This document shows positions 4,449 through 22,148 of a DNA stretch of 26,800 nucleotides, one piece after another (position 1 is the stretch's first letter; each line of letters begins with the position of its first letter). The stretch comes from a virus: positions 1 to 26,800 of the IMG/VR virus record IMGVR_UViG_3300020171_000114. One strand, written 5' to 3'. Under the pieces are notes generated by a model. That model was not told where the DNA came from. It searched no databases and worked only from the letters and a program-made list of their open reading frames with translations. The position numbers and the translations under genes are program-made.

Positions 4449-5048
4449 TCACACTCCTAATCTGGCTTGCAACTGAAGCCTTAACTCTTTAATTTCCCAC
4501 TGAAGTAGCCGTAGTTCTTTCCGCATAACACACTGAGAGCAAAACTTCGTTTTCAAGGAATGGTTGACTGGTGAAATCAACTCTAAATTCTCTAGTCTGT
4601 TATCATCTGTAATTCCATTGATATGATGAACCTGTTCTTTCCGAGTTAACAAGCGGTTCAAACTGCGCTCCATCACTAAGCGATGTTCAAGCACATAGCT
4701 AATAGAACTAGCATTGGGATGTTCAGGACAATATACATTCACGTAACCTCCGTGAATAAAACGACCACCTTTCCAATTATAATGGGCTTGACCTCGTAGT
4801 ATTACCTTTTTGCTATTGATAAAATTCGGATGTGTCTTGTTCCTACCCTTCAAATATGCTAGTTTACTCGATTCACTTCGACTTCTAGTAACTTTGGCTC
4901 TTTCCAAGACATCTTGGACTGTTGAGATACTTGAACCCACCTGTGAATGTATGGATTTAGGCGATTCGCCACTTAGATATAGATTAATTACCTTCTCGCA
5001 AAAAGGTTTGTCATTAACTAATCCTCGAATAGTCCTATTTCCTTTCAT
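4449..5048 (-). CDS. HNH homing endonuclease with N-terminal helix-turn-helix
   Basis: 199 residues. Free-standing HNH_3-type endonuclease expected to nick or cut DNA and drive its own spread among related phages. The core has EHRLVMERSLNRLL (His122), then HHINGITDDNRLENLEL with His141/His142, Asn150 and Asn154 as likely metal and catalytic residues. Residues ~13-55 look like a helix-turn-helix (SGESPKSIHSQVGSSISTVQ) that would give site choice. A QAHYNWKGGR element precedes the core. The C-terminus (~175-197) is a Leu-rich coiled coil. The start overlaps the stop of a 16-codon frame (ATGA) and the end overlaps the next frame (GTGA). There is no room for an intron, so this is a free-standing insertion. 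Confidence 0.92.
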   Translation of the reverse strand: MKGNRTIRGLVNDKPFCEKVINLYLSGESPKSIHSQVGSSISTVQDVLERAKVTRSRSESSKLAYLKGRNKTHPNFINSKKVILRGQAHYNWKGGRFIHGGYVNVYCPEHPNASSISYVLEHRLVMERSLNRLLTRKEQVHHINGITDDNRLENLELISPVNHSLKTKFCSQCVMRKELRLLQWEIKELRLQLQARLGV

Positions 5049-5229: not shown

Positions 5230-6156
5230 CTAAACATAACGCCACTTTGTCACTAGATAGTTCTGCTGGATTTCCCCTGCGGTTAAAGCCCGATTGTAAA
5301 TCCTGGCTTCACCTATCACCCCATTCAAGTCGCTCGTGCCAGTTTCCCTTTCCCCAAGGTATAAATCCCTACCATCCGCAACAGGTGTGTGTGAAGCGAC
5401 AGCGTTTGCACCAAAAACTCCATTAAGGTAAATCTTAGTGTTCGTCCCATTATAAACGCCAGTTATATACGCCCAAACTCCTTTTGAGCCACTAACAAGC
5501 CCAGCATTATCCCAACTATTGGCATTGCCAGTAAAGAAACTCCACTGGCTGGTATCATTATTCCAAACTATCATATAGCAACCAAGATATGTAGTGGTGT
5601 TTATCTTACTTACAATATCAGCATTTGCGGCAAGGGAACTACTTAATTTTACCCAAACCTCAACAGTTACTACTCCCGAAATATCTATAACCGCATTGTT
5701 TGGAATAACTATTTTGTCATCCGTCCCATCAAAACTTCTGCCTTGATAGCCCCAGGTAGCACCTGTAACAGTCATTGCTAGATTAGACTTGTCTTTTGAC
5801 TTGATGATATTGCTAGAAGTAACTGTGATATTGCCCACTGCCCCAGTTGTTGCTATAGAAGTCGCCACCCCTGCTGGGATAGTTACAACACTGTTCGTTA
5901 CCGTCATAGTGCCTGTGGCTACAGTTCCACCTTCTGGCATACCCACTATAAATGTTCCAGCCGTAGCAACATCTATAGTATTTGCCCCAACAGCAAGGTT
6001 GATTGGGTTAGCCGCTGTAAGTGCGCCAGTCCCGTTCTTAATATACCCACCCTTGGCTACCATATCAGGTCGCCAGAGTGGGGCATAGAACACCTCGGAG
6101 TTGTCCTTCTTGGGAGTCCAGATGCTACCCGTTTTTATCTTAGTAGCTATACTCAT
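5230..6156 (-). CDS. LamG / concanavalin A-like virion protein
   Basis: 308 residues. The N-terminal half (~45-125) is Gly/Thr/Val-rich beta sequence. Residues ~135-305 form a LamG-like jelly-roll: GRSFDGTDDKIVIPNN, VTVEVWVKLS, WAYITGVYNGTNTKIYLNG, LYLGERETG and the closing IGEARIYNRALTAGEIQQNY. The last motif is typical of LamG_3-type domains, which often bind glycans. The protein has no signal peptide. Its ATG is 2 nt after the TAG of the upstream gene, with only a weak SD, so coupled translation is likely. A role as capsid decoration, tail fibre or receptor-binding protein fits the family and the position; binding itself is inferred. Confidence 0.85.
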   Translation of the reverse strand: MSIATKIKTGSIWTPKKDNSEVFYAPLWRPDMVAKGGYIKNGTGALTAANPINLAVGANTIDVATAGTFIVGMPEGGTVATGTMTVTNSVVTIPAGVATSIATTGAVGNITVTSSNIIKSKDKSNLAMTVTGATWGYQGRSFDGTDDKIVIPNNAVIDISGVVTVEVWVKLSSSLAANADIVSKINTTTYLGCYMIVWNNDTSQWSFFTGNANSWDNAGLVSGSKGVWAYITGVYNGTNTKIYLNGVFGANAVASHTPVADGRDLYLGERETGTSDLNGVIGEARIYNRALTAGEIQQNYLVTKWRYV

Positions 6157-7296: not shown

Positions 7297-7773
7297 TTAT
7301 AGTCTCTTTACTAAGTCTTTTATCTTTTCCCTGATTTCAGGGTAGTAATACATCGTTTTAAGGAACTCGTATCCAATTCCTCTCTCGTTTGAGTCTGCCT
7401 TCCAGCAGTCGGGTGGTTGGTCGGGACTCCTCGGCTTCCAGTGACCTTCCAGTACCTCGTCAAGCCATAACTCATGAATCACCTGCTCCCTATCCCTGTA
7501 GTATGGGTCAATCTCGACACTCTTACCTACGAACACTCTCTTGATTGCTTCAAAGAGTGCGTGTCTGCCAGGGTTGTCTTCCATTTCAAGGAACTTATTC
7601 CATACCCTTAACCAAAGTTTAGCGTTAGGATGCGACACGTTCTGTTCTGTAGGTTCCGGATAACGAAACGCCAGAGTCACAAGAGCCTTCATAAGAGGGG
7701 CTTGAACCTTCTCTATATAGTATTGCCTTCGGTTCTTGAGTATCTCATGTGATAATGTTTGATTAGTAACCAT
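7297..7773 (-). CDS. Helical hypothetical protein of the enzyme cassette
   Basis: 158 residues from the ATG at 7773, which has GGAGG just upstream (3 nt) and overlaps the end of the radical SAM gene by 11 nt. The same frame is open 45 codons further upstream, but that stretch lies inside the radical SAM coding region, is unlike the rest and has no better SD. The product (MVTNQTLSHEILKNRRQY...) is mainly helical with many charged and aromatic residues, for example KLWLRVWNKFLEM and REQVIHELWLDEVLEGHWK, ending EIREKIKDLVKRL. No family is recognised. Translational overlap with the radical SAM gene suggests a linked role, perhaps as an accessory or substrate-binding partner, but this is inference. 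Confidence 0.7.
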   Translation of the reverse strand: MVTNQTLSHEILKNRRQYYIEKVQAPLMKALVTLAFRYPEPTEQNVSHPNAKLWLRVWNKFLEMEDNPGRHALFEAIKRVFVGKSVEIDPYYRDREQVIHELWLDEVLEGHWKPRSPDQPPDCWKADSNERGIGYEFLKTMYYYPEIREKIKDLVKRL

Positions 7774-8812
7774 TATCCTCCAGGTATCTCGATAGGGGAC
7801 ATACAGCACATGCCGGTATTTCCTCATAACGCCCATTTGCGTGAAGGTCACGTAACTCCTGAATCTTCTCGCCTGTCCATATATCGTGAACAGATTGCTC
7901 AAAAGCATTACCTACCTGTAGACTTCTCATAGAGTCCAGACAACATACAGTAACCACCCCATCGGGATGAATAAACATGCGCTGCCAGAGCGAGGCACAG
8001 CAGAAGTTGGGATTTCTACGATTGTTATGGGTAGGGGAGTATTCTGGCTTATTCTGACCAAAATGGTCTAGGTAGTCTATGTATGCTACAACATCTACGA
8101 TAGGTTCGAATAGTTTACAGAAGACTTCCCAGTCGTCTTTGTTTTCTTCCATCCGTACCATAGAAACACGGGTTAGGGGACTAACCGACCCCATCTCTTT
8201 CCTGATTTCATTGAATTCTCGAATATTGGCTAGTACCATATCGTACTCAGACCTAACTCTTATTTGATTGTATTTGTCTCTGTAGGGCGAATCAAATGAA
8301 ACGAACAACTTATCAAGTCCTGCCTCGATTAACTCACGGGCTTTCCAATCAACTAGAAGTGTCGCATTGGTGTTAAGCATTGTATCAAGCACTCCAGCTT
8401 GCTTGGCATACTTAATCATCTCCGCAAGTCTGGGATTCAGTAATGGTTCCCCGAGATAATTGAACTTGACAGAGCAAAGTCCGTTTTCCACACCCTCATC
8501 TATGATTTGCTTGTAGAGGTCAAAGTCAAACATCCCTATATCCCAGAATGTCCCGTCCGCAACCTTGATTGTTCTGGGGCACATAACACATCTTAGATTA
8601 CAGGCGTTGGTAGCCTCAATATCAAGATGAAGGGGAAATGAACCAACAATACGTTCTTGGGGAAACTTTATCCAGTTACCCCTGTAATCCCAATACTCAG
8701 GGGACTTGGTAGCTTCCCAACCCTGAATCTTGTTACTCTCCTCTAAATGTAACGTCTGATTAATAGGAGTGTCTGTTCTAAGGATGGTAGACTCCTTAAA
8801 TGGTCTATACAT
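7763..8812 (-). CDS. Radical SAM enzyme with SPASM/twitch-type C-terminal domain
   Basis: 349 residues. The radical SAM CX3CX2C motif is intact (CNLRCVMC; Cys71, Cys75, Cys78) and should hold the [4Fe-4S] cluster that splits S-adenosylmethionine. A NYLGEPLLNP motif (~118-127) matches the SAM-contacting 'GEP' strand. The C-terminal part has Cys272-X12-Gly-X4-Cys290, Cys291, then VGNAFEQSVHDIW and Cys335-X2-Cys338. This fits a SPASM/twitch domain holding probably one auxiliary Fe-S cluster rather than two. Such enzymes act on peptides, sugars or other substrates; the substrate here is unknown. The start overlaps the formyltransferase stop by 8 nt and the end overlaps the next gene by 11 nt. Being inside a virion operon is unusual. 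Confidence 0.92.
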   Translation of the reverse strand: MYRPFKESTILRTDTPINQTLHLEESNKIQGWEATKSPEYWDYRGNWIKFPQERIVGSFPLHLDIEATNACNLRCVMCPRTIKVADGTFWDIGMFDFDLYKQIIDEGVENGLCSVKFNYLGEPLLNPRLAEMIKYAKQAGVLDTMLNTNATLLVDWKARELIEAGLDKLFVSFDSPYRDKYNQIRVRSEYDMVLANIREFNEIRKEMGSVSPLTRVSMVRMEENKDDWEVFCKLFEPIVDVVAYIDYLDHFGQNKPEYSPTHNNRRNPNFCCASLWQRMFIHPDGVVTVCCLDSMRSLQVGNAFEQSVHDIWTGEKIQELRDLHANGRYEEIPACAVCPLSRYLEDNGY

Positions 8813-9449
8813 GGGCTACCTCTGCCCCTTTATAGGGCGGGAAGTGAAATGCCCTCTTCTTGCGGTCTATTGTTTCAGGACTATCTCCAGGGAGAATATA
8901 CCGTAACTTCTCTACATCTTCCCACTTCATATACCTCGTATTGAACTGAGGCGTTCTTTTAACCGTACCACACTCAATACTACGAAGGACTTTTTGGAAC
9001 AGTGTAAACATCTCTTCGTAGGTTTTAATCGCAAGACTGTATGCCGTTTCGTTCCTGTCTAAATAAACGGCTCTTCTGTCTATAATATCCCCCCTGTCTA
9101 TCTGGGCAGTCATAAAGTGGGCAGTACATCCGTATTGTTTGACGTTCTCCAGTATTGCTATATTATAACCACAAGCCCCGCCAAATTCAGGCAACCATCC
9201 AGGGTGGAAGTTGATACACCCCAATCTAGGATGACTGAGCAGGGGTTCTCCTATCTTTTTCCTGGATAAGTAGGAGATTAGCAAATCCACATCACCTAAT
9301 TCAATATCCTCCAGATACGGTATGTGCAGACGCTTACCCTCAGCCCTGACTTCCTCATCCCCATCTACAGCGATTACATCCCAATCAGTCAGCAGGTATC
9401 TGAGTACATTTACCCCGTATTTCTTGCCACCCACAAAGATTACTTTCAT
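8805..9449 (-). CDS. Formyltransferase-fold enzyme (sugar N-formyltransferase-like)
   Basis: 214 residues from the ATG at 9449, which overlaps the stop of the upstream gene (ATGA). The frame is open for 24 codons further upstream, but that is inside the neighbour's coding sequence, and MKVIFVGGKKYG is the natural first strand. The formyl_trans_N catalytic triad is present: Asn80 and His82 in INFHPGWLPEFGG, and Asp118 in TAQIDRGDII. The 36-residue His-to-Asp spacing equals that of Fmt and ArnA. The family moves a formyl group from N10-formyltetrahydrofolate to an amine. The C-terminus has RAFHFPPYKGAEV, a stretch I associate with short amino-sugar N-formyltransferases. It lacks the C-terminal tRNA-binding domain of Fmt. 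The acceptor is not known. Confidence 0.88.
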   Translation of the reverse strand: MKVIFVGGKKYGVNVLRYLLTDWDVIAVDGDEEVRAEGKRLHIPYLEDIELGDVDLLISYLSRKKIGEPLLSHPRLGCINFHPGWLPEFGGACGYNIAILENVKQYGCTAHFMTAQIDRGDIIDRRAVYLDRNETAYSLAIKTYEEMFTLFQKVLRSIECGTVKRTPQFNTRYMKWEDVEKLRYILPGDSPETIDRKKRAFHFPPYKGAEVAHV

Positions 9450-10057
9450 ACGATTGCTTCCATTCGTTCTGATTCGGGAACAAGTTTTACGTAGAGTTTC
9501 TCGTATTCTTCCCTGACCCACGCCATAGGAAGTCCGGTAAGACCAGCACTATACGTCCATTTCAATGAACCTTTGCCCATAACTAACTCAACCCCCAACC
9601 CTGTTGCTAAACCTAGCCAGAATGTCACCGCTGGTTTACCAGTTTGATACATCAGTTCCGGCCCCTGGTCAATACCGTAGATATGGATTTTCTCATAACC
9701 ATACAGCAGGGCATAGGCAATCATGTACGTTACGGTTGGGCCGAAGTATGATGTATGAAACTTGGCTACAACCTCTTTGGTTGGATAGTGTTCTGTAACG
9801 TAGTCTCTCATACCTACCACTGGGATACCTAACTCAGCGGCACGTTTCGATGACTCATCTATAGATGTCTGTAGAAAGGGCGGGTGGTCGTTTATGGTTT
9901 GCCACTTGCCATCAATAGAGAAAATCTTTGTGAACTTCCTGTCTTTCAGACTGGGCTCCAATAAACAACGATAGACCCCCCATACCTCTTCTGTCTCAAA
10001 ACGACATTCAACGTATGAGGGGCCTAGACTTAAAAGGGTAACTTCTTTTTTACTCAT
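9446..10057 (-). CDS. Rossmann-like protein, first gene of the enzyme cassette
   Basis: 203 residues. The N-terminus VTLLSLGPSYVECRF is a beta strand plus a Gly-containing loop as in Rossmann-like folds, followed by EEVWGVYRC and FSIDGK. Residues ~103-130 (SYFGPTVTYMIAYALLYGYE, then KIHIYGIDQ) and ~138-155 (KPAVTFWLGLATGLGVE) recall phage and DUF115/MptE-like proteins that have 'S..YM.A.A...G...I.iyG.D' and a 'P...wlG.A...G' block. Some relatives of that fold bind nucleotides, pterins or sugars, but I cannot assign a reaction. It leads a cassette with a formyltransferase and a radical SAM enzyme, with ATGA coupling. A sugar- or nucleotide-related role is possible. Confidence 0.6.
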   Translation of the reverse strand: MSKKEVTLLSLGPSYVECRFETEEVWGVYRCLLEPSLKDRKFTKIFSIDGKWQTINDHPPFLQTSIDESSKRAAELGIPVVGMRDYVTEHYPTKEVVAKFHTSYFGPTVTYMIAYALLYGYEKIHIYGIDQGPELMYQTGKPAVTFWLGLATGLGVELVMGKGSLKWTYSAGLTGLPMAWVREEYEKLYVKLVPESERMEAIV

Positions 10058-10077
10058 ATTTCCAAACTCTTTCTTGG

Positions 10078-10106
10078 AAGGGGGTTAGTTAGAGTCCAAC
10101 CCCCTT
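10078..10106 (-). other. Perfect 9-bp hairpin between virion genes and enzyme cassette
   Basis: The arms 10078-10086 and 10098-10106 pair perfectly (AAGGGGGTT with AACCCCCTT) around an 11-nt loop. It lies in the 62-nt gap after the paralogous virion genes and ahead of the cassette. No U-run follows on the minus strand, so it is not a classical intrinsic terminator. It could slow or partly end transcription, or protect the 3' end of a processed mRNA. Confidence 0.65.
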
Positions 10107-10119
10107 AAAGACTTTACTA

Positions 10120-10788
10120 TTAAGCTACTGCGGATTTGGGAAGTTCCGCATACACGAACCGTCCAAAGCCTACACCGGCGTTAGACGATGCCCAGCCCAC
10201 CAACTGCTGGCTCGGGCCAATGACTTGCAGGACTCCGGTGTCTTTCGCCAGATAAGTAAACTTGGTCTGGCTTCGGAGAGTAGTTCTGGTTGTGACGTTG
10301 CTACCCAACTGGATACCATCGTGCCAGAACTCATTCACAACCGTAGTCAGGGCTGTTCCTGCGGCGGCCGCCCATGTAACAGTACAAGCCGAGGATAACC
10401 CCGCAATAGCATTGGAACTGGGTGGAATATCAGCAGTCCCAGAACCAGTAACGCTACCTGTACCATATTGGAGAGCAAGTTCTACCACCAGAGCCGTTCC
10501 ATAGAGGTCGAAGTTGACTGTGAACTCCAGTGGTATGATGACTACACTAGACGGGATTGCCACATGAAGGTCAAACTCAGTGGTATCAAGTGTGCCGGCA
10601 CCAAAGGTGACAGGTGTGGTAGCCGCACCAAGAGATGAGGTAAAGACCCGCCCTTCCAGTGACCATAGGGCGATGAGGTCGGTAACACCCATGCTTCCGT
10701 CTCTGAGCATACGAAGGTAGACTTCAGCACCTTCGTCCACTCTTTCAACGGCGGTTGTTTGTCTTGCTGAACCTTTAATTATTGCCAT
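10120..10788 (-). CDS. Beta-rich virion protein, downstream copy of a tandem pair
   Basis: 222 residues. Clearly paralogous to the next gene upstream over its full length: shared blocks include ARQTTAV, DLIA.WSLEGR.FT, AATTPVTFG, PSSVVIIPLE, TTVVNEFWHDGIQLG, SQTKF.Y and GVLQVIGPSQQL, ending RFVYAELP. The ATG overlaps the TAA of the copy (TAATG), so the two are translated as a coupled pair. The protein has no signal peptide, membrane segment or catalytic motif. Position between capsid genes and tail genes suggests capsid decoration or a head-tail structural protein with two related subunits; this is inference. Confidence 0.7.
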   Translation of the reverse strand: MAIIKGSARQTTAVERVDEGAEVYLRMLRDGSMGVTDLIALWSLEGRVFTSSLGAATTPVTFGAGTLDTTEFDLHVAIPSSVVIIPLEFTVNFDLYGTALVVELALQYGTGSVTGSGTADIPPSSNAIAGLSSACTVTWAAAAGTALTTVVNEFWHDGIQLGSNVTTRTTLRSQTKFTYLAKDTGVLQVIGPSQQLVGWASSNAGVGFGRFVYAELPKSAVA

Positions 10789-11462
10789 TATGACACACTC
10801 GCTACTGGTAATTCCGCATAGACAAATCGAGTGAAGCCTGTGCCTGCCTGAGCAGACGCATACCCGATTAACTGTTGGCTTGGGCCAATAACCTGAAGCA
10901 CCCCGCTATCCATAGCCCTGTATGAGAATTTGGTCTGGCTGCGGATAACAGTTGCAGATGCAGCACTGATACCGAGTTGGATACCGTCATGCCAGAACTC
11001 GTTGACCACGGTGGTGAGGTTAGTGCCTGTTGCACAAGAGAACTTTACTGTACAAGCTGAGGTTAGACCCGTGTTGGCATTGGAACTAATTGGGGTGTCC
11101 GTCAGGTCTGCAGTACCAGCCACACTACCTATTCCGTACTGGAGGGCACACTCAACTACCTGGATGGTTCCGTAGATGTCGAAGTTGATAGTCCACTCAA
11201 GAGGGATGATTACCACACTGGACGGGACTAATACGTGCAGGTCGTGTTCCAGTACGTCAAGAGTGCTGGAGCCGAATGTTACTGGGGTTGTAGCTGCACC
11301 CGCACTTGCCGTGAAGATTCTGCCCTCTAAAGACCACTGGGCGATAAGGTCAGCTATGCCAACCGTTCCGTCCCGTAATAGTCTTAGATAGTTTTCGGCA
11401 GTACCTTCGGAATTGCGTACAACAGCCGTTGTTTGTCTTGCATTTCCTATGATTTTTGCCAT
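10788..11462 (-). CDS. Beta-rich virion protein, upstream copy of a tandem pair
   Basis: 224 residues. ATG at 11462 with a strong GGAGG 11 nt upstream. It shares most of its length with the adjacent paralog; differences are concentrated in the middle (~115-140), near residues 155-165 and in the first 30 residues, which may be surface-exposed. The N-terminal ARQTTAV and C-terminal RFVYAELP blocks are nearly unchanged. The pair arose by tandem duplication and has diverged while keeping the fold. I do not recognise a named family. Confidence 0.7.
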   Translation of the reverse strand: MAKIIGNARQTTAVVRNSEGTAENYLRLLRDGTVGIADLIAQWSLEGRIFTASAGAATTPVTFGSSTLDVLEHDLHVLVPSSVVIIPLEWTINFDIYGTIQVVECALQYGIGSVAGTADLTDTPISSNANTGLTSACTVKFSCATGTNLTTVVNEFWHDGIQLGISAASATVIRSQTKFSYRAMDSGVLQVIGPSQQLIGYASAQAGTGFTRFVYAELPVASVS

Positions 11463-12975: not shown

Positions 12976-13845
12976 TTAACTCTTGCGGGTATAGAATCTG
13001 GCACCGGACGGTGATGCACGAAGTACGGCAGCACCGAAGAAGCCAGACGTGTTAACCATCCAGCTATGCCGGGTCGGTTCACGCCATTTCTCAATATCCA
13101 TCGGAGACTGTACGATAAGACCGATTGCCTCTTTAGCTAGAACAGCACCGTAGTTTCCGGTGGTGGCCCCCGTCAGGTTGTTGGTGAAGTAGACAGGAAG
13201 ACCGTAGGAATCAATCCTGCCACGGTAGCCGGCAGCTCTCAGGGGGTTAGTGGTATAGTCGAAGGTCATATACTTGTCTATGCCTCTCAGGTCGGCAAGT
13301 ACAGACGGGTCGCCAACGAGTGCCCTTTCCTCAGGGATGTCGGCTTCATCCAGTCCTTCCATAATGGACACTAACAGGTCATCGGTAAAGGTCTGCCCAT
13401 CAGCACCCTGCCAGGTAGTGCGAAGACTGGAGAACAACGCACAAACATACGCATCCAGTTTCTTCTTCCAACCATAGGCGGCATTGGCGGCAGCTTTCTC
13501 TAAGAGTCCAGGAACCTGTGTCTGGCGGGCTGTGCTGTCGTCTATGGAGACCGGTATTTCCCACCATGTATCAATCGTGATTGATTCGGCGGTTGTGGTT
13601 AGAGCGGTTTTCATATTGGTGATTACACCAGTCGTGCTCACATCCACCATAGCACCAGTGAGTTCGGTCATTACTGGTATATTAAGTATATCGCCTTTTG
13701 CAAGCATTGGTTGCCACTCGGTACTGACTACCTGTTGTGCTACAAGAGTAGACTCAAGTATATCAATAACCTTAGCAGACCAAATTTCAGGAACTAACTG
13801 CCCTGTTAGGGCATCAGTAGGTTGTCTAGTATCGGGCCATGCCAT
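12976..13845 (-). CDS. Major capsid protein, HK97-fold
   Basis: 289 residues. ATG at 13845 with AAGGAG 8 nt upstream. The gene follows a coiled-coil scaffold gene, the usual order for this role. Recognisable parts are an N-arm helix (WSAKVIDILESTLVAQQVV), a beta strand block (GDILNIPVMTELTGAMVDV), a spine-like helix (LEKAAANAAYGWKKKLDAYV), then ALVGDPSVLADLRGIDKYMT and SYGLPVYFTNNL, and the C-terminal P-domain pattern ALRASPSGARFYTRKS-like ending (positions 13020-12979). These fit coat proteins of the P22-like/HK97-like superfamily. No protease gene is visible nearby, so the shell may form without proteolysis. Confidence 0.85.
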   Translation of the reverse strand: MAWPDTRQPTDALTGQLVPEIWSAKVIDILESTLVAQQVVSTEWQPMLAKGDILNIPVMTELTGAMVDVSTTGVITNMKTALTTTAESITIDTWWEIPVSIDDSTARQTQVPGLLEKAAANAAYGWKKKLDAYVCALFSSLRTTWQGADGQTFTDDLLVSIMEGLDEADIPEERALVGDPSVLADLRGIDKYMTFDYTTNPLRAAGYRGRIDSYGLPVYFTNNLTGATTGNYGAVLAKEAIGLIVQSPMDIEKWREPTRHSWMVNTSGFFGAAVLRASPSGARFYTRKS

Positions 13846-14762: not shown

Positions 14763-14902
14763 TTTTTGACAAGTATTGTCGTTGTAGGCTGGATAATCTT
14801 GACTACCCCATTCTGGATTTTGATTGTAACCTCACCGAAGCCAGGACTTTTCTCTATCTTTTCACACTCTTGCCTGATTAGTTGAAGGGTGTCATTTGTC
14901 AT
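14756..14902 (-). CDS. DUF2292-like small protein (48 aa)
   Basis: ATG at 14902 overlaps the TGA of the giant gene (ATGA); an AGGG-containing purine stretch is upstream. The product is MTNDTLQLIRQECEKIEKSP followed by GFGEVTIKIQNGVVKIIQPT and a short tail. The helix followed by a 'G.v.I.i..G.v..I' beta hairpin matches the small DUF2292 family found in phages and Firmicutes. No function is established. Its 3' end runs into the tandem TTGACA repeats that drive the capsid genes, so it closes the packaging transcription unit. Confidence 0.8.
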   Translation of the reverse strand: MTNDTLQLIRQECEKIEKSPGFGEVTIKIQNGVVKIIQPTTTILVKKT

Positions 14903-17900
14903 CGTTTTAACCCTGCCAGTTTCTTGTCTATTTCAGCCTGCCGTTGCTCAATGTCATAGAGTGCCTGGTCACGGGCATTTGGTTTGGTCTGGTACTTCTT
15001 CTGGTCTCTAATAGGAATCCACCCGAAGGCAATTACACCCCACGCCTCAAGGTCGGGATTGTTTTTACGATATAAGTCCCGCCAGTAATCGGTGGGAAGA
15101 TTCTGGTATTCAACATACTTCTGGTAGACGACTCTATCAGGTAGACTTGTGCCAGGAATCATAGGAACTTTACGGAAGTCCATAGGTTTGTGGTCAGGGA
15201 AAATATCCTTGTTCATCCACACATCTCGGTAGTAGTCCATGTGTTCCAACATGAACCATTCATCATCATAAGGTGTCTCTTTCGGCTTGGTATAGAACTG
15301 GGCATACGTTTCCACATAGTTCCCTGGTACTTTTGCTTTGTATGCGTCCCTGCGTCTTCTATCCATTTTGTATTCTAAATTCTCAGGCTTATCTAAGTAG
15401 GCATTGATGGCTGCCGTCTGTTCTTTGGTCTGACCTGCCCCATACTTACCAAGAATTTCTTCATAACCAGCATCCTGCTTCTCGTACTTAACGTCTATGT
15501 TCCAGATAGGTATCTTCGTGAAGTCTGGTGCGTTTTCCATGAATCCATTGTCAAGTCTCCATTGACCGTAAGGAGTTAGTTTAGGTTTCATTGGGTCAGA
15601 CTGGTCTATCAGAGATAACTGTATGTCCGGTGAGTTCCAAGACTTGCCTGGTTGCCCCTGTTTTATCATATAGTCCACGTGACTTTGCACCAGACCATCA
15701 TCAGGCTTCACATAGGGCGTGCCAGTGGCTTTGGATGCGTTAGAAGCTATTGTATATACCTCTGAGCGATATGTGTCCTCAAACGCCTCCTGGTTGTCTT
15801 TGTTCAACTGTGCTATTGCCAATGACCTTGCTGTAAACTTGCCATTCGGGTCAGGTTGACCTTGTTCGTTCACTTTCAAGTTACCATCTTTGTAGTCAGG
15901 ATTAGGTTTACCGCCAGGTAGAGTCTTGTCAGAATAAGACTTGATTGTGTCCAGATACTTACGGTCTTTCCTCTCTATCTCCCAGATAGGTACACGTGTC
16001 TTGTCAAGCGGTTCCATAGCATCATCACCCATTATGTCTTTGTTAGTGAGTAACGCATCCAACTCAGGATTGTTTAACCTATCAAGGTTGGCTTCCGCAC
16101 TTGTCGTACTATCCCCTGGAACGTCACTTCTACGTTTGAACACGACTACCGCATCAATGAGCTTTGTGTCTATCGGTTTCTCGGTAGTGCCTTTTTCTAT
16201 CAGGTCTATGCGCCTCTTGGTGTCAATGTAAGTCTCGTTGCCCACTTTAGTCTTGTATAATTCAGCCCTTGCTCTATCACGGGCGGTAAGACCGTTGGCA
16301 TCTTTTACCTCGTCATCCAGCAAAGAAACAGCATCCAACTTCCGAGTAGTATCTCGGAATGTCTTTTCGGTTTGTAACTTAAACACTGGCAGGTTTTTAG
16401 GAGTAATATCTTCTGGTAAAGCAGAATCAACCAAGTCTAGTTTATCAATCAATTTCATATATGATTCATAGGCTTCCATTGTCAGTAATTTTGCTTCACC
16501 CCACAACGCCAATCTAGCATTATCTTCGGGACTATTTATCAGGGTTTCCTCATATTTATTCTCTGAAAGCCAGGGGTTCTGTTTAAGCATATCTTGCTGT
16601 TCCTGCGGACTGGCAGAGTGATATTTCGCTAGAACGTCTAGTTGGCGACCACTTAATTTACTAAGGGCTAAGGCATTTGGATGCTTACTATCAAATTCCT
16701 TCAGTTTCTCTGGGTCAACAATACTACGTCTATCACCTATTTGGGTCAGTATGTCATCGAGTTTAATCTTGTCACCAATCAAACTCTTACTAACTTGGGC
16801 AGGAGATTTCTTGGGAAACTCATTAACAGTGGCTTTTGCAGTTTCCTTTTCATACCAATTACTTACTATGGGAGATGGCTTTTCTACTTCCTTTATTTCA
16901 ATCCCTTTGTATAGGGTGCTGAACTTATTATCAAGGTCACTTGTCTTATAGTATTTATCCGGTTCTCCAAGTTCACCCTTTTGAGAAACATTACCCAGCC
17001 TCCCTTCTGCCAGTTCACTGTTTTCAGTGAGCGTCATAGCCCTTCGCCCCTCTATTTTTAACCCACTCTGGAATGTATCGAGTGCGGCAGACTTAGCCTT
17101 ACCCATAACATCCTGAAGCAGATTGCGTTTTTCTTCATCACTGGCTTTTTGATAATCGTCAGTGGAAATGAGAGTATTAACTCTCTTGATAACCTCGTCA
17201 GACATCATCTGTTGGTAGTCGTTACGTTCCTGAATTGTAAGTTCCACGTTGTTAATTGAACTGCCGATACTCCCAAGTCTAACGCCAAGTGCATCCATAT
17301 CTTCTATTTGGGAAAATTCACGATTGGTATTGGTCGTAGTTTCATTAAATTTATCCCACCCCAAGTTTTCTTCCTGAGTGGCTTTAGTCCCTATGAAACG
17401 TCTTACAAAGGGGACTCTGGTTAGTTTTTGAGTGGAAGTGTATTGCTCTTCCTGTTTTGCTTTAGTAGACTCACCATACATCTCAGGTTTGAAGCCGAGA
17501 GCCTCTAACCCCAAACCAACAATCCAGTTTACAGTTTCACCTGCACCAGCAAAATAGTCTTTGATAGCAAAGTCAATCAGGCGAGGACTAACCTTGAATT
17601 TCTTGCCTAAAGCAACTGCTACATTAGAGGTTTCATCACCAAATTGCTGTTCTGGAAGTCGTGCCTGTTCACCTTGAGGTATAATAGGTACGCCTCTGAA
17701 TAAATCCTGTCCGGTCGCTAACCCAACTCCTGCACCCAATAGTGGAGGTGTAATACCAGAGATAGTTGGTTCTACCGGGCTTAGACCAGTTAACATACTA
17801 CCTGTAGTATTAAGCAGGTTCTCTACTACTGACCTATCGTTTTGCCCCCACATAATACGCAGGAAGGTTTCAATCGGCGCAGCGAGAACAGACCCCATTG

Positions 17901-20900
17901 GCCCCTTAGGAACTTTGATATAGACGGGGAACTTCTCACCCTTATTGTCAGTCCCTTCACCAAACTGGAATATCCAGTTATATCTATATTCATAATCAGG
18001 TATGTCTTTTGAAGTCTCAAATCGTGCATTGTTTACCTGAGCCATAACACTTGTTATCCCTAATGGAGCAGAAGCAACTAATGCCCACTTAGGATTATTC
18101 TTAAAAACCCTTAATGTGTTAATGCCACCTTGTAACGAAGCATTGGAGAATGGGATTGCCTGGTTAATAAGTTTCATCACTGTTCCAGACTTGGCAAAGT
18201 CCACTGTCACATCCCTAGACCGTATAGCAGCCTCAAGTTTAGATACGCCAGCATTGGTAAGTTTCTTGTATGTTCCTATCCTTGTAGCACGTTCACCCAC
18301 AATGTTGGCTTCCTGAATCAGTCTGGGAATATAAGTTAGAACATCTTTTGGATTCTTGATAGTCAACGAACCACGTGTTGCTGCCGACGCCAATTTCGCA
18401 GTAGAACGCTGTGTCTCTGTTATACCTGACATCAACACACCCTCTTTAGCTGCATCACTAAAGAGTTTGTTCTTGGTTATAGCTGCCCACCAACCTTCAA
18501 GATAACTTGGTGAGAATGGAATCATCCTCTCCCTAAACCACGCTGATATAGCATCTCTTAATGGGTTCATTACCGCAAACGCAGGATTATAGGTTGTAGC
18601 ACCGGCACGTAATGGTGCAGCCACCGTTTGTAGGAAATTGGTCAAAGCGTTACCAAATTCAGCATCAAGATTCTTAGCAGCTTCGGCATATATCTTGGGA
18701 ACTTCTACAGTAACCTTCTTACCATCGAAGAAGAATGAAATCGTATCTTTTAGAACACTATGCTCACCCGCCTCACCCTCTTTGAGATACTTGACAAGCG
18801 GTTCGTCGATTTGTTCTTCTAATTTCTGAAGTCCAGCAACCACTGACTTAGCTGACTTATTTCTGGCTATAAGATTCTGTGTTTTAATAACTTGTGTCTC
18901 CGACCTTGCAAGAGGACTATCCAGTTTTCTGATACTGCCACTAGGTTGCATTACTTTGATACCAGTAGTAGAAACAGACGCCTCAGGACGGGCAAGAACA
19001 TTCTCCACTTGGTCAACAATGGAGAAGTCCTCACGGGCATAATCTATATAGTGAGGGTTAGACGCTTTTAACGCATTATAGGATTCTTTTGAAAGTATCC
19101 CCTCATCGAGTAATGGCTTGAGGACATTCTCATCATTTATCTTCCACATTGCCTGAGCAGCATCTTCTATCTTCTTAAAAGCCTTGTCGCCTATTTTTGC
19201 TTTAAGTGTTGCTTCGGCTGTGGCAATATCACCCCAACCAGTCAACCCACCTGGTAGTTTGGCACCGGGATATTTCTGTAGTATGTCCTGTGCCCTTCTC
19301 CCAACCATAAGTTCTTCAAGGTGTTTGATTTCATTCTGGGTAAGTTTTGCCAATACCGGTCTGACTTGAGTTCTAAGTAAATCCTCACCATAAGCAGATG
19401 CACCAGAAACTATTTGCGCCATCTGGTGAGTAGGAACGCCAGTTTTATTCTCCAGTCCTCTTAGTGTATCAAGTCTATCGTAATACTGGGTAAGAAACTT
19501 GTTTGTAGCAACACTTATTTTATCCTTTAGTGGAGTTTCTGTCGGAGTAACGGCATCTACTAACTTCTTATATGGGTCTTCGGGAGGTAATGGTTTCGGT
19601 ACTCCTTTACCTGGTACACGACCCGATGGAAGTTTTGTTCCACCTCCACTTACTACTGGTTTTGCCTCTAACTGTTGGACAGTAAGCCTTTCACTGACCT
19701 GTTGCTCAACTGTTCTACCTTGTGGTATCTCTGTTTTGGGTAAGATAGCACCCTCTTTGGGTACTGGTGTAACCCCTGGGGCAGGTGTAACAGGTTCGGG
19801 TAACTTTACTGTAGGTTCTTTGGGTAAAGCGGCAGGCGGCTGAGTAGTGGAGGGAGAGACACTCTCAACACCGCCTGCTTTGGTCACAATAGGCTTGGCG
19901 GGAGGCACCTCACCTACTGGTTCTATCTTAACACGTGCTTTTACAGCATCATCAAATGCTTGAGGATTCCTTACCCTTATTGCTTCCTCAGTAGGAGTTA
20001 GCTTCTCACCCTTAACTATCTTGTCAACAGTTGCAGTGAATGATGGCTGCTCTTTAACACCGACAATTGGCTTCTCACCTACCTTGATGGGTTCGGGCTT
20101 GGCTACCTTAGCATCCTCTACTGCCGTCTTAGCCTCTTGGATAATCTTCCCTGCCGTTTCCTCTGTGAGTTTGCCTTTAGAACCTTTTATCAATGCTCCG
20201 ATGTCGGCTTTAGCCAGTTTAGTTATCCACTCAGGCAGAACCTTCTCTAATAACTTACCACCTGCACCAGCTACCTTTCTAACCCCGATATTAACAATCC
20301 CCCCACCTGCTCCCCACAGATAGGCGTTAAGAAGATTCAGTCCTTGTTCGATTGGAGTATCAGCTTCCAGATTAAAGCCAGCAGCCTCGGCAATAATTTT
20401 TACTTTGCCTTCGAAGACTCGAAGTTTTGCCCAAGTTCCGTTTTCTCTCTCCCTAAGCCATCTATCAGGTTCGGTAGTATAAATCACTCTCTCTCTGACA
20501 GTCATTGAGTTAAGTTCAGCATCAGTCATTGGATAGGGTATCCGTTTACCGCCAGGTGTCGTTATCATCGGCGGTGTAGGTTTAGCCCCAGTAATATCGA
20601 ACTTCGGTGTCATACCACCAGCAGACAATGCGCTTGGTTTGGCTTGAGTCGGGGAAAACGCCTCTGAAAGGACATTAAAACTGAGTTGCTCAATATCCGT
20701 CTCGCTCATCCCTATTATCCTGAGCAGGTTCTTTTTGTCTTCGGTCATACCACCCATCTGAATCACCTTAACGAAAGAATCAGGGTTTGTGGTTAGAAGG
20801 TTAGCCAAAGAGTCTACCGTCTGCCCTTCAAGCCCTGGAATCTTACTAAGGCTCGTCTGGACAGCGTTCAGCACTTTCTCTGGTGGGATGATTGAGTCAA

Positions 20901-21375
20901 TCGTGGCTTGGTCAGCACCCATATTCTTGAGAAGCGAGATTGATTCGGTAACATTATTATCTTGAAGTTCTTTGGCAAACTGCTCCGGGTCAAGAGCGAG
21001 TTTAGTGTTAGCGATAGACACTTCTTTAGCCTTGTAATATCTATCAAGATAACCAGGCGACAATGGAGAATCCACGGGAATCTCTCTAGCTTTATCTAAC
21101 TGTGCCTGTAGTTCTGGCGAGAGGGAAGTATCGGGTTCTGTAGTAGGGGTAGCACCAGCAAAAATATCCCGACCGGCACGAGGAATAGTTCGCATAGGTG
21201 GTCTTTCAGCTAATAGTTTTACTTCACCATTGTCTAACTGAGTATTGTCAGTAACAATAGGATTAACAGGTATCTGTTCTGCCCTTAGTTTGGGAGGAAC
21301 ATACCCTGTATAGTCAGGTGGCATACCTTCATACGGGTCGTCTTTGGTAAAATCAGACTTCCAGTTTTTTGCCAT
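14899..21375 (-). CDS. Giant polyvalent-type virion protein with LPD38-like core (2158 aa)
   Basis: 2158 residues; the ATG at 21375 follows the TAA of the 57-residue gene (TAAATG). Residues ~1-480 are mostly helical with Pro-rich linkers and one Gly-rich hydrophobic stretch (~345-375, NAYLWGAGGGIVNIG). Residues ~480-600 are a Pro/Val/Lys-rich spacer. Residues ~600-1280 match the LPD38 domain of phage polyvalent proteins: SNPHYIDYARED, then YNPAFAVMNPLRDAISAW, VDFAKSGTVMKLINQAIPFS and nearby blocks. The C-terminal third is helical with four degenerate KVPIW-like motifs near 1663, 1795, 1956 and 2072. Polyvalent proteins travel in the virion and enter the host with the DNA; that fate here is inferred from the family. 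I see no protease or ADP-ribosyltransferase motif. A tape-measure role is less likely given its place between portal and scaffold. Confidence 0.85.
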   Translation of the reverse strand: MAKNWKSDFTKDDPYEGMPPDYTGYVPPKLRAEQIPVNPIVTDNTQLDNGEVKLLAERPPMRTIPRAGRDIFAGATPTTEPDTSLSPELQAQLDKAREIPVDSPLSPGYLDRYYKAKEVSIANTKLALDPEQFAKELQDNNVTESISLLKNMGADQATIDSIIPPEKVLNAVQTSLSKIPGLEGQTVDSLANLLTTNPDSFVKVIQMGGMTEDKKNLLRIIGMSETDIEQLSFNVLSEAFSPTQAKPSALSAGGMTPKFDITGAKPTPPMITTPGGKRIPYPMTDAELNSMTVRERVIYTTEPDRWLRERENGTWAKLRVFEGKVKIIAEAAGFNLEADTPIEQGLNLLNAYLWGAGGGIVNIGVRKVAGAGGKLLEKVLPEWITKLAKADIGALIKGSKGKLTEETAGKIIQEAKTAVEDAKVAKPEPIKVGEKPIVGVKEQPSFTATVDKIVKGEKLTPTEEAIRVRNPQAFDDAVKARVKIEPVGEVPPAKPIVTKAGGVESVSPSTTQPPAALPKEPTVKLPEPVTPAPGVTPVPKEGAILPKTEIPQGRTVEQQVSERLTVQQLEAKPVVSGGGTKLPSGRVPGKGVPKPLPPEDPYKKLVDAVTPTETPLKDKISVATNKFLTQYYDRLDTLRGLENKTGVPTHQMAQIVSGASAYGEDLLRTQVRPVLAKLTQNEIKHLEELMVGRRAQDILQKYPGAKLPGGLTGWGDIATAEATLKAKIGDKAFKKIEDAAQAMWKINDENVLKPLLDEGILSKESYNALKASNPHYIDYAREDFSIVDQVENVLARPEASVSTTGIKVMQPSGSIRKLDSPLARSETQVIKTQNLIARNKSAKSVVAGLQKLEEQIDEPLVKYLKEGEAGEHSVLKDTISFFFDGKKVTVEVPKIYAEAAKNLDAEFGNALTNFLQTVAAPLRAGATTYNPAFAVMNPLRDAISAWFRERMIPFSPSYLEGWWAAITKNKLFSDAAKEGVLMSGITETQRSTAKLASAATRGSLTIKNPKDVLTYIPRLIQEANIVGERATRIGTYKKLTNAGVSKLEAAIRSRDVTVDFAKSGTVMKLINQAIPFSNASLQGGINTLRVFKNNPKWALVASAPLGITSVMAQVNNARFETSKDIPDYEYRYNWIFQFGEGTDNKGEKFPVYIKVPKGPMGSVLAAPIETFLRIMWGQNDRSVVENLLNTTGSMLTGLSPVEPTISGITPPLLGAGVGLATGQDLFRGVPIIPQGEQARLPEQQFGDETSNVAVALGKKFKVSPRLIDFAIKDYFAGAGETVNWIVGLGLEALGFKPEMYGESTKAKQEEQYTSTQKLTRVPFVRRFIGTKATQEENLGWDKFNETTTNTNREFSQIEDMDALGVRLGSIGSSINNVELTIQERNDYQQMMSDEVIKRVNTLISTDDYQKASDEEKRNLLQDVMGKAKSAALDTFQSGLKIEGRRAMTLTENSELAEGRLGNVSQKGELGEPDKYYKTSDLDNKFSTLYKGIEIKEVEKPSPIVSNWYEKETAKATVNEFPKKSPAQVSKSLIGDKIKLDDILTQIGDRRSIVDPEKLKEFDSKHPNALALSKLSGRQLDVLAKYHSASPQEQQDMLKQNPWLSENKYEETLINSPEDNARLALWGEAKLLTMEAYESYMKLIDKLDLVDSALPEDITPKNLPVFKLQTEKTFRDTTRKLDAVSLLDDEVKDANGLTARDRARAELYKTKVGNETYIDTKRRIDLIEKGTTEKPIDTKLIDAVVVFKRRSDVPGDSTTSAEANLDRLNNPELDALLTNKDIMGDDAMEPLDKTRVPIWEIERKDRKYLDTIKSYSDKTLPGGKPNPDYKDGNLKVNEQGQPDPNGKFTARSLAIAQLNKDNQEAFEDTYRSEVYTIASNASKATGTPYVKPDDGLVQSHVDYMIKQGQPGKSWNSPDIQLSLIDQSDPMKPKLTPYGQWRLDNGFMENAPDFTKIPIWNIDVKYEKQDAGYEEILGKYGAGQTKEQTAAINAYLDKPENLEYKMDRRRRDAYKAKVPGNYVETYAQFYTKPKETPYDDEWFMLEHMDYYRDVWMNKDIFPDHKPMDFRKVPMIPGTSLPDRVVYQKYVEYQNLPTDYWRDLYRKNNPDLEAWGVIAFGWIPIRDQKKYQTKPNARDQALYDIEQRQAEIDKKLAGLKR

Positions 21376-21549
21376 TTATTCCGCCTTCGGTGGTTCTTCT
21401 AGGTTCGCCTGTGCCTGAACACGGAGATTCCCCCGCATTGCTTGGACAGCACCCTTGAGTCTGTCCATCGGGGAAACACCTTGATTAACTGACGGCATAA
21501 GAGCTTCCTGAATCTTCTTGTTTATATCAGAGTGAGTCCAACGTATCAT
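21376..21549 (-). CDS. Small protein between portal and giant gene (57 aa)
   Basis: ATG at 21549 overlaps the TGA of the HNH gene (ATGA), with GGGAG 6 nt upstream. The product begins MIRWTHSDINKKIQEALMPS, continues with SPMDRLKGAVQAMRGNLRVQ and ends EEPPKAE. It is helical and has no known family. Its TAA sits directly before the giant gene's ATG, so translation of the two is linked. Before the HNH insertion it probably followed the portal gene directly. A head-assembly or packaging accessory role is possible. Confidence 0.75.
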   Translation of the reverse strand: MIRWTHSDINKKIQEALMPSVNQGVSPMDRLKGAVQAMRGNLRVQAQANLEEPPKAE

Positions 21550-22148
21550 ATTGTTCTCCCTACATTTTCGATTTCTAATTGTTGTCTTAAAAGTATATTT
21601 TCAGCTTCCAAGGCTGTCACTCGTTTCTGAAGCATAGCGATTTGACTTTTTATCCATGTATCAGCTAAGTGGTATTGTTTCCCATTGATAAGTTCCAGAT
21701 TTTCTATTCTATTATCATTTTTGATGCCATTCTTATGGTGAACAACCTCCCAAGAGAGTAAACATCGGCTTAGACTTTTTGCCATTACTAAGCGGTGTTC
21801 AAAAACATATCCCTTGGAGGGATGTAACTTCTTGTATCCTTTACCCTTCTTTACTGTCATTGGGAAGAAGAAGTCATCTGGTTGGAGTAAAACTAAAATA
21901 TAACCTGGCTTGGTAGTAACCCGCCCACCTTTCCAGTGCCAATGTTCTGAACCACGCTTTTTGAGTTCATTCGCTCGGCAATCCATACAACGCCTATTAA
22001 CAGGTTGACGTTTAACAAACGCCACCCATCTGGTCTTACCACAAACTTCGCAAGCAGACCATATCAGACTAGTACCATTGGAATAGCCAATATCCCTACC
22101 TCGTTTGATTTCTCCTAAGTAAGTTCCTATAGGATGGGCATTAACCAT
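21546..22148 (-). CDS. HNH homing endonuclease with N-terminal zinc finger
   Basis: 200 residues. The core shares its layout with the HNH protein at 4449-5048: SEHWHWKGGR, then FEHRLVMAKSLSRCLL and HHKNGIKNDNRIENLEL (His137/His138, Asn146, Asn150). The N-terminal part differs: CEVCGK (Cys33, Cys36) and CMDC (Cys54, Cys57) form a four-Cys zinc site instead of a helix-turn-helix. The C-terminal ~30 residues are a coiled coil (AMLQKRVTALEAENILLRQQ). Its ATG overlaps the portal stop by 8 nt and its stop overlaps the next start. It is a free-standing homing endonuclease inserted between portal and the 57-residue gene. Confidence 0.92.
   Translation of the reverse strand: MVNAHPIGTYLGEIKRGRDIGYSNGTSLIWSACEVCGKTRWVAFVKRQPVNRRCMDCRANELKKRGSEHWHWKGGRVTTKPGYILVLLQPDDFFFPMTVKKGKGYKKLHPSKGYVFEHRLVMAKSLSRCLLSWEVVHHKNGIKNDNRIENLELINGKQYHLADTWIKSQIAMLQKRVTALEAENILLRQQLEIENVGRTI

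Follow-up and report, generated by a model that had tools for sequence, protein, structure and literature searches.

A candidate nonulosonic-acid tailoring and transfer cassette in the virion operon of an IMG/VR virus

We analysed a four-gene enzyme cassette carried by the virus record IMGVR_UViG_3300020171_000114 of IMG/VR, from which a 26.8-kb stretch of DNA (a fragment; hereafter the window) was studied. The cassette encodes a small protein initially annotated as 'Rossmann-like', a formyltransferase, a radical S-adenosylmethionine (SAM)/SPASM enzyme and a 158-residue protein (Table 1), and in our best reading the window is a variant of a wider phage system that makes or tailors, and then transfers, a nonulosonic acid. 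More specifically, we put at about one in two the probability that its enzymes modify a nonulosonic acid (a sugar of the sialic, legionaminic or pseudaminic type) and pass it on by a cytosolic, Maf-like route, most probably to proteins of the virion.

A CstII-like transferase family and its sugar-synthesis neighbours

The 'Rossmann-like' protein matched no Pfam, PHROG or NCBIfam family, and single-protein scans of viral contigs with this protein, the formyltransferase or the radical SAM enzyme gave nothing, so that DNA patterns and alignments were needed. A DNA pattern derived from a motif of the protein recovered 21 viral stretches encoding related proteins, and 16 family members were aligned; the window protein is 48% identical to its homologue in virus L071 and 39% identical to that in virus L107. 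When the 16-member profile was compared with the PDB (hmmsearch), the nine best matches were all sialyltransferases, headed by CstII (E = 2.5e-7), and Pfam CST-I matched the family only below its cut-off. The initial annotation had proposed structure prediction as a check on this protein, and the outcome was a CstII fold: an AlphaFold model built with the alignment (predicted local distance difference test, pLDDT, 82.5; a model without the alignment was of no use) retrieved CstII at ranks 1–5 in a Foldseek search of the PDB (E from 5.6e-5 to 1.4e-3, TM about 0.5). Profile and model together suggest a phage protein family distantly related to the sialyltransferase CstII, and the product of 9446..10057 is probably a nonulosonic-acid (sialic-acid-like) transferase. 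The family had one match among 50,697 isolate records.

Thiamine pyrophosphokinase was the second fold match of the model (1.7e-3), and marginal MptE-like matches were also obtained, including by fold among viral proteins, as might be expected if the protein were kinase-like (resembling MptE or thiamine pyrophosphokinase) and the cassette modified a pterin, a cofactor or a nucleotide. In structure, CstII itself resembles both thiamine pyrophosphokinase and the Maf central domain (PMC3426422, PMC11339370). With CstII scoring better in both sequence and fold, and with nonulosonic-acid genes repeatedly found nearby instead of any recognised pterin or folate genes, a kinase-like role seems exceedingly improbable.

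The sugar assignment draws on the genes that accompany the family in other viruses. NeuB (nonulosonic-acid synthase) is encoded in 15 of the 46 viral records that carry the transferase family, and a NeuA-type cytidine monophosphate (CMP)-sugar synthase (cytidylyltransferase) in the same 15, as against 0/50 for NeuB and 0/50 for NeuA in control records picked by terminase similarity (Fisher p = 3.9e-6, or 8e-5 with total length as the null; the effective number of records is lower because some are near-duplicates). Neither NeuB nor NeuA played any part in retrieving the transferase-bearing records. The NeuB and transferase genes are ≤5 kb apart in eight records. PseB-, PseH-, PseC-, WbuX-, NeuC-, NeuB- and NeuA-like genes stand beside the transferase gene in other phages, after the capsid gene or before the terminase gene (for example, Pse-type genes PseH and PseB with NeuB and NeuA in L117; WbuX, PseB- and PseC-like genes and two NeuB genes in L122; and NeuC-like, NeuA and NeuB genes in L123).

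At 13514-17836 of L122, WbuX (an N-acetyl sugar amidotransferase), a PseB-like dehydratase, the second NeuB and a PseC-like aminotransferase follow the capsid gene one after another and together form an almost full viral nonulosonic-acid pathway.

Placement of the cassette in virion operons

The initial annotation described four genes with 4-, 8- and 11-nt overlaps amid virion genes, which is borne out by the coordinates, by Pfam and PHROG matches and by synteny with L071. All four genes are on the minus strand, overlap by 4, 8 and 11 nt in gene order, and are separated from the flanking genes by gaps of 62 nt and 10 nt. Upstream lie the gene for the major capsid protein, small structural genes and a tandem pair of beta-protein paralogues, and downstream a 375-residue gene and a LamG virion gene; the terminase and portal genes of the window were also recognised, via relatives. 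The order of major capsid gene, small structural genes, two beta paralogues and transferase is kept in the independent virus L071, and because of this conservation we do not consider the neighbourhood a product of chance.

L071/L102, the nearest of the relatives syntenic with the window, is the decisive case for virion-operon placement, sharing with the window the major capsid protein (49% identity), a 137-residue gene product (44%), the two beta paralogues, the transferase (48%) and downstream tail proteins (41-44%). In the slot that holds the formyltransferase, radical SAM and 158-residue protein genes in the window, L102 carries cupin, NeuB, HAD-like (called by eye, with no Pfam match), radical SAM, NeuA–methyltransferase fusion and B12-binding radical SAM genes. 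More broadly, the transferase gene lies downstream of the capsid gene on the same strand in nine viruses (L071, L074, L090, L103, L107, L108, L117, L122 and L126, with the L107 capsid called by position and size only), and before the terminase gene in L115, L123 and Microcystis phage Mvi-Yong1342-1, where the two genes adjoin.

The same sugar chemistry could in principle be directed to a host surface glycan, remodelling the envelope to block superinfection. Glycosyltransferases in the host-recognition regions of pelagimyophages, where radical SAM cassettes also occur, have been proposed to play this role (PMC7029224), and a CsaB-like pyruvyl transferase within the L108 cluster is consistent with such an acceptor. 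However, no flippase, lipid-linked glycosyltransferase, or membrane or lipid-carrier enzyme was seen among the open reading frames of the window, and the genes sit in the virion operon rather than in an early or lysogeny region, with the transferase following the capsid gene in the nine viruses above. Since the genes stand in a virion operon and no lipid-carrier or membrane enzyme accompanies them, we favour the virion as the target and regard a surface-glycan acceptor as unlikely.

The viral contig scans turned up no second instance of exactly these four genes together, and the contents of the slot vary between relatives, as they might if mobile auxiliary genes with no joint function had come together by chance. 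Against such a chance assembly, which we judge very unlikely, stand the overlaps of 4, 8 and 11 nt between the reading frames and the agreement of two independent lines, one from the transferase and one from the formyltransferase, on amino- or nonulosonic-sugar loci. The search for the same four-gene order in other phages, proposed in the initial annotation, thus succeeded in part: the full set did not recur (no formyltransferase in 77 related viral records), but its core did, the transferase being found repeatedly in virion operons with sugar-synthesis and radical SAM genes.

Table 1 Cassette genes and candidate acceptor or anchoring genes, in window coordinates.
Feature	Coordinates	Strand	Details
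Predicted CstII/Maf-fold (GT42-like) transferase ('Rossmann-like' gene)	10057-9446	-	203 aa
Predicted amino-sugar N-formyltransferase (Formyl_trans_N)	9449-8805	-	214 aa
Radical SAM/SPASM enzyme	8812-7763	-	349 aa
Phage-specific 158-aa protein, possible transferase partner	7773-7297	-	34-38% identity to two L107 proteins
Paralogous structural protein B, candidate acceptor	10120..10788	-	Tandem paralogue directly before the transferase gene
Paralogous structural protein A, candidate acceptor	10788..11462	-	Tandem with B; tandem also in L071
LamG virion protein, candidate acceptor	5230..6156	-	PF13385 4.1e-23; PHROG 8510 virion structural protein 4.5e-23
Major head protein, anchors the virion operon	12976..13845	-	PHROG 267 2.5e-22; 49% identity to L071 major capsid protein

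Other features of the operon were noted alongside. Two HNH endonuclease genes are inserted in it (4449-5048 and 21546-22148, both minus strand), the first matching PF13392 (2.2e-7) and the second similar to it via shared relatives, with relatives of these genes in L007, L012, L020, L022, L033, L106, L113 and L124. A 2158-residue protein, possibly head-internal or ejected, is encoded between the portal and scaffold genes (14899-21375, minus strand), and giant proteins partly similar to it occur in L004, L048, L071 (1911 residues) and L107 (2181 residues). Directly 3' of the major capsid gene is a gene for a 74-residue zinc-ribbon protein (PF09723; 12749-12973, minus strand), with a CxxC protein of similar size at the same place in L071. 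Two terminase relatives that lack the transferase family carry, in their structural regions, a methyltransferase–glycosyltransferase fusion with a radical SAM/SPASM enzyme (L027, 16017-18217) and glycosyltransferases with a radical SAM/SPASM enzyme and a methyltransferase (L039, 12379-16122; assigned by eye). Two B12-related proteins likewise lie in virion operons beside nonulosonic-acid genes, namely the B12-binding radical SAM protein of L102 (7008-8264; Pfam) and a protein of L103 that resembles such enzymes by eye (9344-10555).

The tailoring enzymes and the 158-residue protein

Both enzymes that follow the transferase are assigned with matches over cut-off and retain the catalytic residues that the initial annotation had listed. 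The formyltransferase (PF00551, 1.3e-16) has Asn80, His82 and Asp118, all three invariant in 19 cellular relatives, and its C-terminal RAF-PPY-GA motif (Arg199-Ala209) is invariant or nearly so in the same 19; the enzyme ends without the last ~20-50 residues of cellular relatives. Neither scanning genomes directly with the protein nor a formyltransferase-motif scan of viral contigs gave a match, and the subfamily was reached in cellular genomes via a motif, such that FHP-LP-G-GYN-AI is present in all 23 cellular loci by construction of the search. The closest cellular match is an Omnitrophota protein (42% identity, E = 1e-50). Nonulosonic-acid genes occur in 4 of the 23 cellular loci sampled (L155, L156, L157 and L161), with L155 encoding in a row NeuA, a sugar nucleotidyltransferase, NeuB, a formyltransferase–NeuD fusion, NeuC, LegC and LegB. 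Judged by sequence, the window enzyme belongs to this predicted amino-sugar N-formyltransferase subfamily. Alternative assignments to Fmt (tRNA formylation) and PurN (purine synthesis) were rejected, as scores were far below the equivalog cut-offs and the protein falls in the amino-sugar subfamily. Four more viral members of the subfamily were located within sugar-rich regions. The L175 formyltransferase gene overlaps by 4 nt the gene for a 423-residue protein (8559-9830), which has a GPS motif and weakly matches MptE-like proteins and CST-I; the two are possibly a second, independent transferase–formyltransferase pair.

The radical SAM enzyme (PF04055, 1.3e-15; SPASM PF13186, 1.8e-14) carries the CX3CX2C motif (Cys71-x3-Cys75-x2-Cys78) and, at Cys271/272/290/291/335/338, possible auxiliary-cluster ligands; from these residues, it probably holds one auxiliary cluster. 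Its closest solved relative is BtrN (E = 1.2e-8), a dehydrogenase of an amino-cyclitol, and its best score against NCBIfam equivalogs was 108.5 bits, compared with a cut-off of 380. Radical SAM genes also adjoin nonulosonic-acid genes in G001 and G007, and we propose that the window enzyme is a sugar-tailoring enzyme. The initial annotation had also entertained a modified peptide or nucleotide modification, for which we found no support. A role in modifying ribosomally synthesized and post-translationally modified peptides (RiPPs) was considered for this gene and is not favoured by the scores against peptide maturases; precursor genes encoding <60 residues were not searched for.

The 158-residue protein stayed below every family cut-off in Pfam, PHROG and NCBIfam, and we take the fourth gene to be real because two homologues exist in L107 (34-38% identity). 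These diverged copies (L107 9390-9995 and 11276-11719) are placed one before the transferase gene, which it overlaps by 4 nt, and the other before a LamG gene, a possible sign that the family is tied to specific virion proteins; the 158-residue protein may therefore be a partner of the transferase.

Proposed mechanism and comparison with known systems

In the mechanism that we propose, a CMP-nonulosonic acid would come either from the host or from phage genes that lie beyond the fragment; the formyltransferase would add an N-formyl group to the amino sugar, either as the free precursor or in its nucleotide-linked form; the radical SAM/SPASM enzyme would modify this sugar again, possibly oxidising or epimerising it in the manner of BtrN-type enzymes; and the CstII/Maf-fold transferase, perhaps with the 158-residue helper, would move the sugar in the cytosol to Ser/Thr residues of virion proteins of the same operon. 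The initial annotation suggested that virion proteins receive an unusual group, for example an N-formylated amino sugar; this is retained as the best-supported reading and sharpened to a CstII-related transferase acting with what is most likely a nonulosonic acid. The data show which genes are present, the distant kinship of the transferase with CstII, its association with NeuB and NeuA, its place in virion operons and the subfamily of the formyltransferase; we infer which sugar is involved, what the radical SAM enzyme does to it, that the 158-residue protein helps and that the acceptor is a virion protein.

Several observations weigh against this proposal. Neither NeuB nor NeuA is present in the 26.8-kb window, which holds no sugar-synthesis genes (amino-hexose genes included), and as the window is a fragment, the donor would have to come from the host or from unsequenced phage genes. 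Both NeuB and NeuA are missing from 31 of the 46 transferase-bearing records, many of them short, and the lack of the formyltransferase in the 77 related viral records is a further point. In the transferase family alignment, there is no Tyr at the aligned D+2 position, the equivalent of Tyr156 of CstII, and no invariant or nearly invariant His in place of His188; we take these CstII residues to be catalytic (His188 as the base), and for lack of clear equivalents the family is named GT42-like or CstII-like rather than a GT42 member. Finally, most of the other cellular formyltransferase loci have aminotransferase or dehydratase genes of 4-amino-sugar pathways and no NeuB. Because of these loci, an amino-hexose stays a rival: the sugar moved by the transferase could be a nucleotide-linked 4-amino-4,6-dideoxyhexose (N-formyl-perosamine type), and aminotransferase or dehydratase genes, but no NeuB, lie near this formyltransferase in other phages as well. 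The tie of the transferase family to NeuB and NeuA, its CstII fold and the absence of amino-hexose genes from the window argue for a nonulosonic acid instead, and we consider an amino-hexose quite improbable.

Extending the nonulosonic-acid proposal beyond the window, we tentatively suggest, as a possibility somewhat short of probable, that many tailed-phage lineages encode a dedicated cytosolic system for making nonulosonic acids, tailoring them (by N-formyl, methyl, radical SAM and B12-radical SAM chemistry) and fixing them to the phages' own capsids or tails through a small CstII-fold family; it would be the phage equivalent of flagellin glycosylation, with the window as its N-formyl plus radical SAM variant. 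An open-access literature search, in which absence is weak evidence, returned no description of phage-encoded nonulosonic-acid decoration of virions, nor any account of a family of CstII-fold phage transferases linked in virion operons to genes for nonulosonic acids. The ways in which cells, viruses and immune systems recognise one another are governed by sialic-acid-like sugars; if the proposal is correct, phages that coat their particles with sugars of their own making would explain the sugar-synthesis genes in virion operons, might alter adsorption or evade defences in this way, and would offer a compact enzyme set for attaching nonulosonic acids to proteins. The transferase family, absent from Pfam and PHROGs, becomes a testable enzyme class.

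Among known enzymes, the N-terminal domain of ArnA, PseJ and VioF share with the window formyltransferase the Formyl_trans_N fold and an Asn/His/Asp active site, but the window enzyme falls in its own subfamily, beside or fused to nonulosonic-acid genes, and has a truncated C-terminus. The radical SAM enzyme is closest to BtrN among solved SPASM/twitch enzymes, with which it likely shares a single auxiliary cluster, but scores far below every NCBIfam equivalog cut-off. The transferase has its best profile and fold match in CstII (GT42), with a shared core (YM-x-A-x-A...GY-x-x-I...G-I/V-D), although identity is ~18%, TM is about 0.5, and the Tyr156 equivalent and an invariant His are lacking.

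Among viral precedents, mycobacteriophage-encoded glycosyltransferases, for example of Maravista, are thought to glycosylate the capsid (PMC11256854) and thus resemble the window in being phage-encoded and proposed to act on virion proteins; the abstract names only two putative glycosyltransferases and no nonulosonic acid, formyltransferase or radical SAM enzyme. The virion glycoprotein VP4 of HRPV-1 carries host-made 5-N-formyl-legionaminic acid (PMC6137143), an N-formylated nonulosonic acid on a virus particle, and in the host locus neuC and neuD adjoin the gene of a predicted formyltransferase; HRPV-1 differs in being an archaeal enveloped virus that encodes no such genes, its sugar being made by the host and borne on an N-linked glycan. 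Maf adds pseudaminic acid to flagellin in the cytoplasm, prior to export (PMC4065374), and its central domain (PF01973) resembles CstII (PMC11339370). The phage protein is a single domain of ~200 residues with no flagellin and no PF01973 match over cut-off (1 of the 16 family members matched, at E = 0.097, and the window protein did not), but the likeness to Maf extends to a cytosolic enzyme, a CstII-like fold and genes kept together with those for nonulosonic-acid synthesis.

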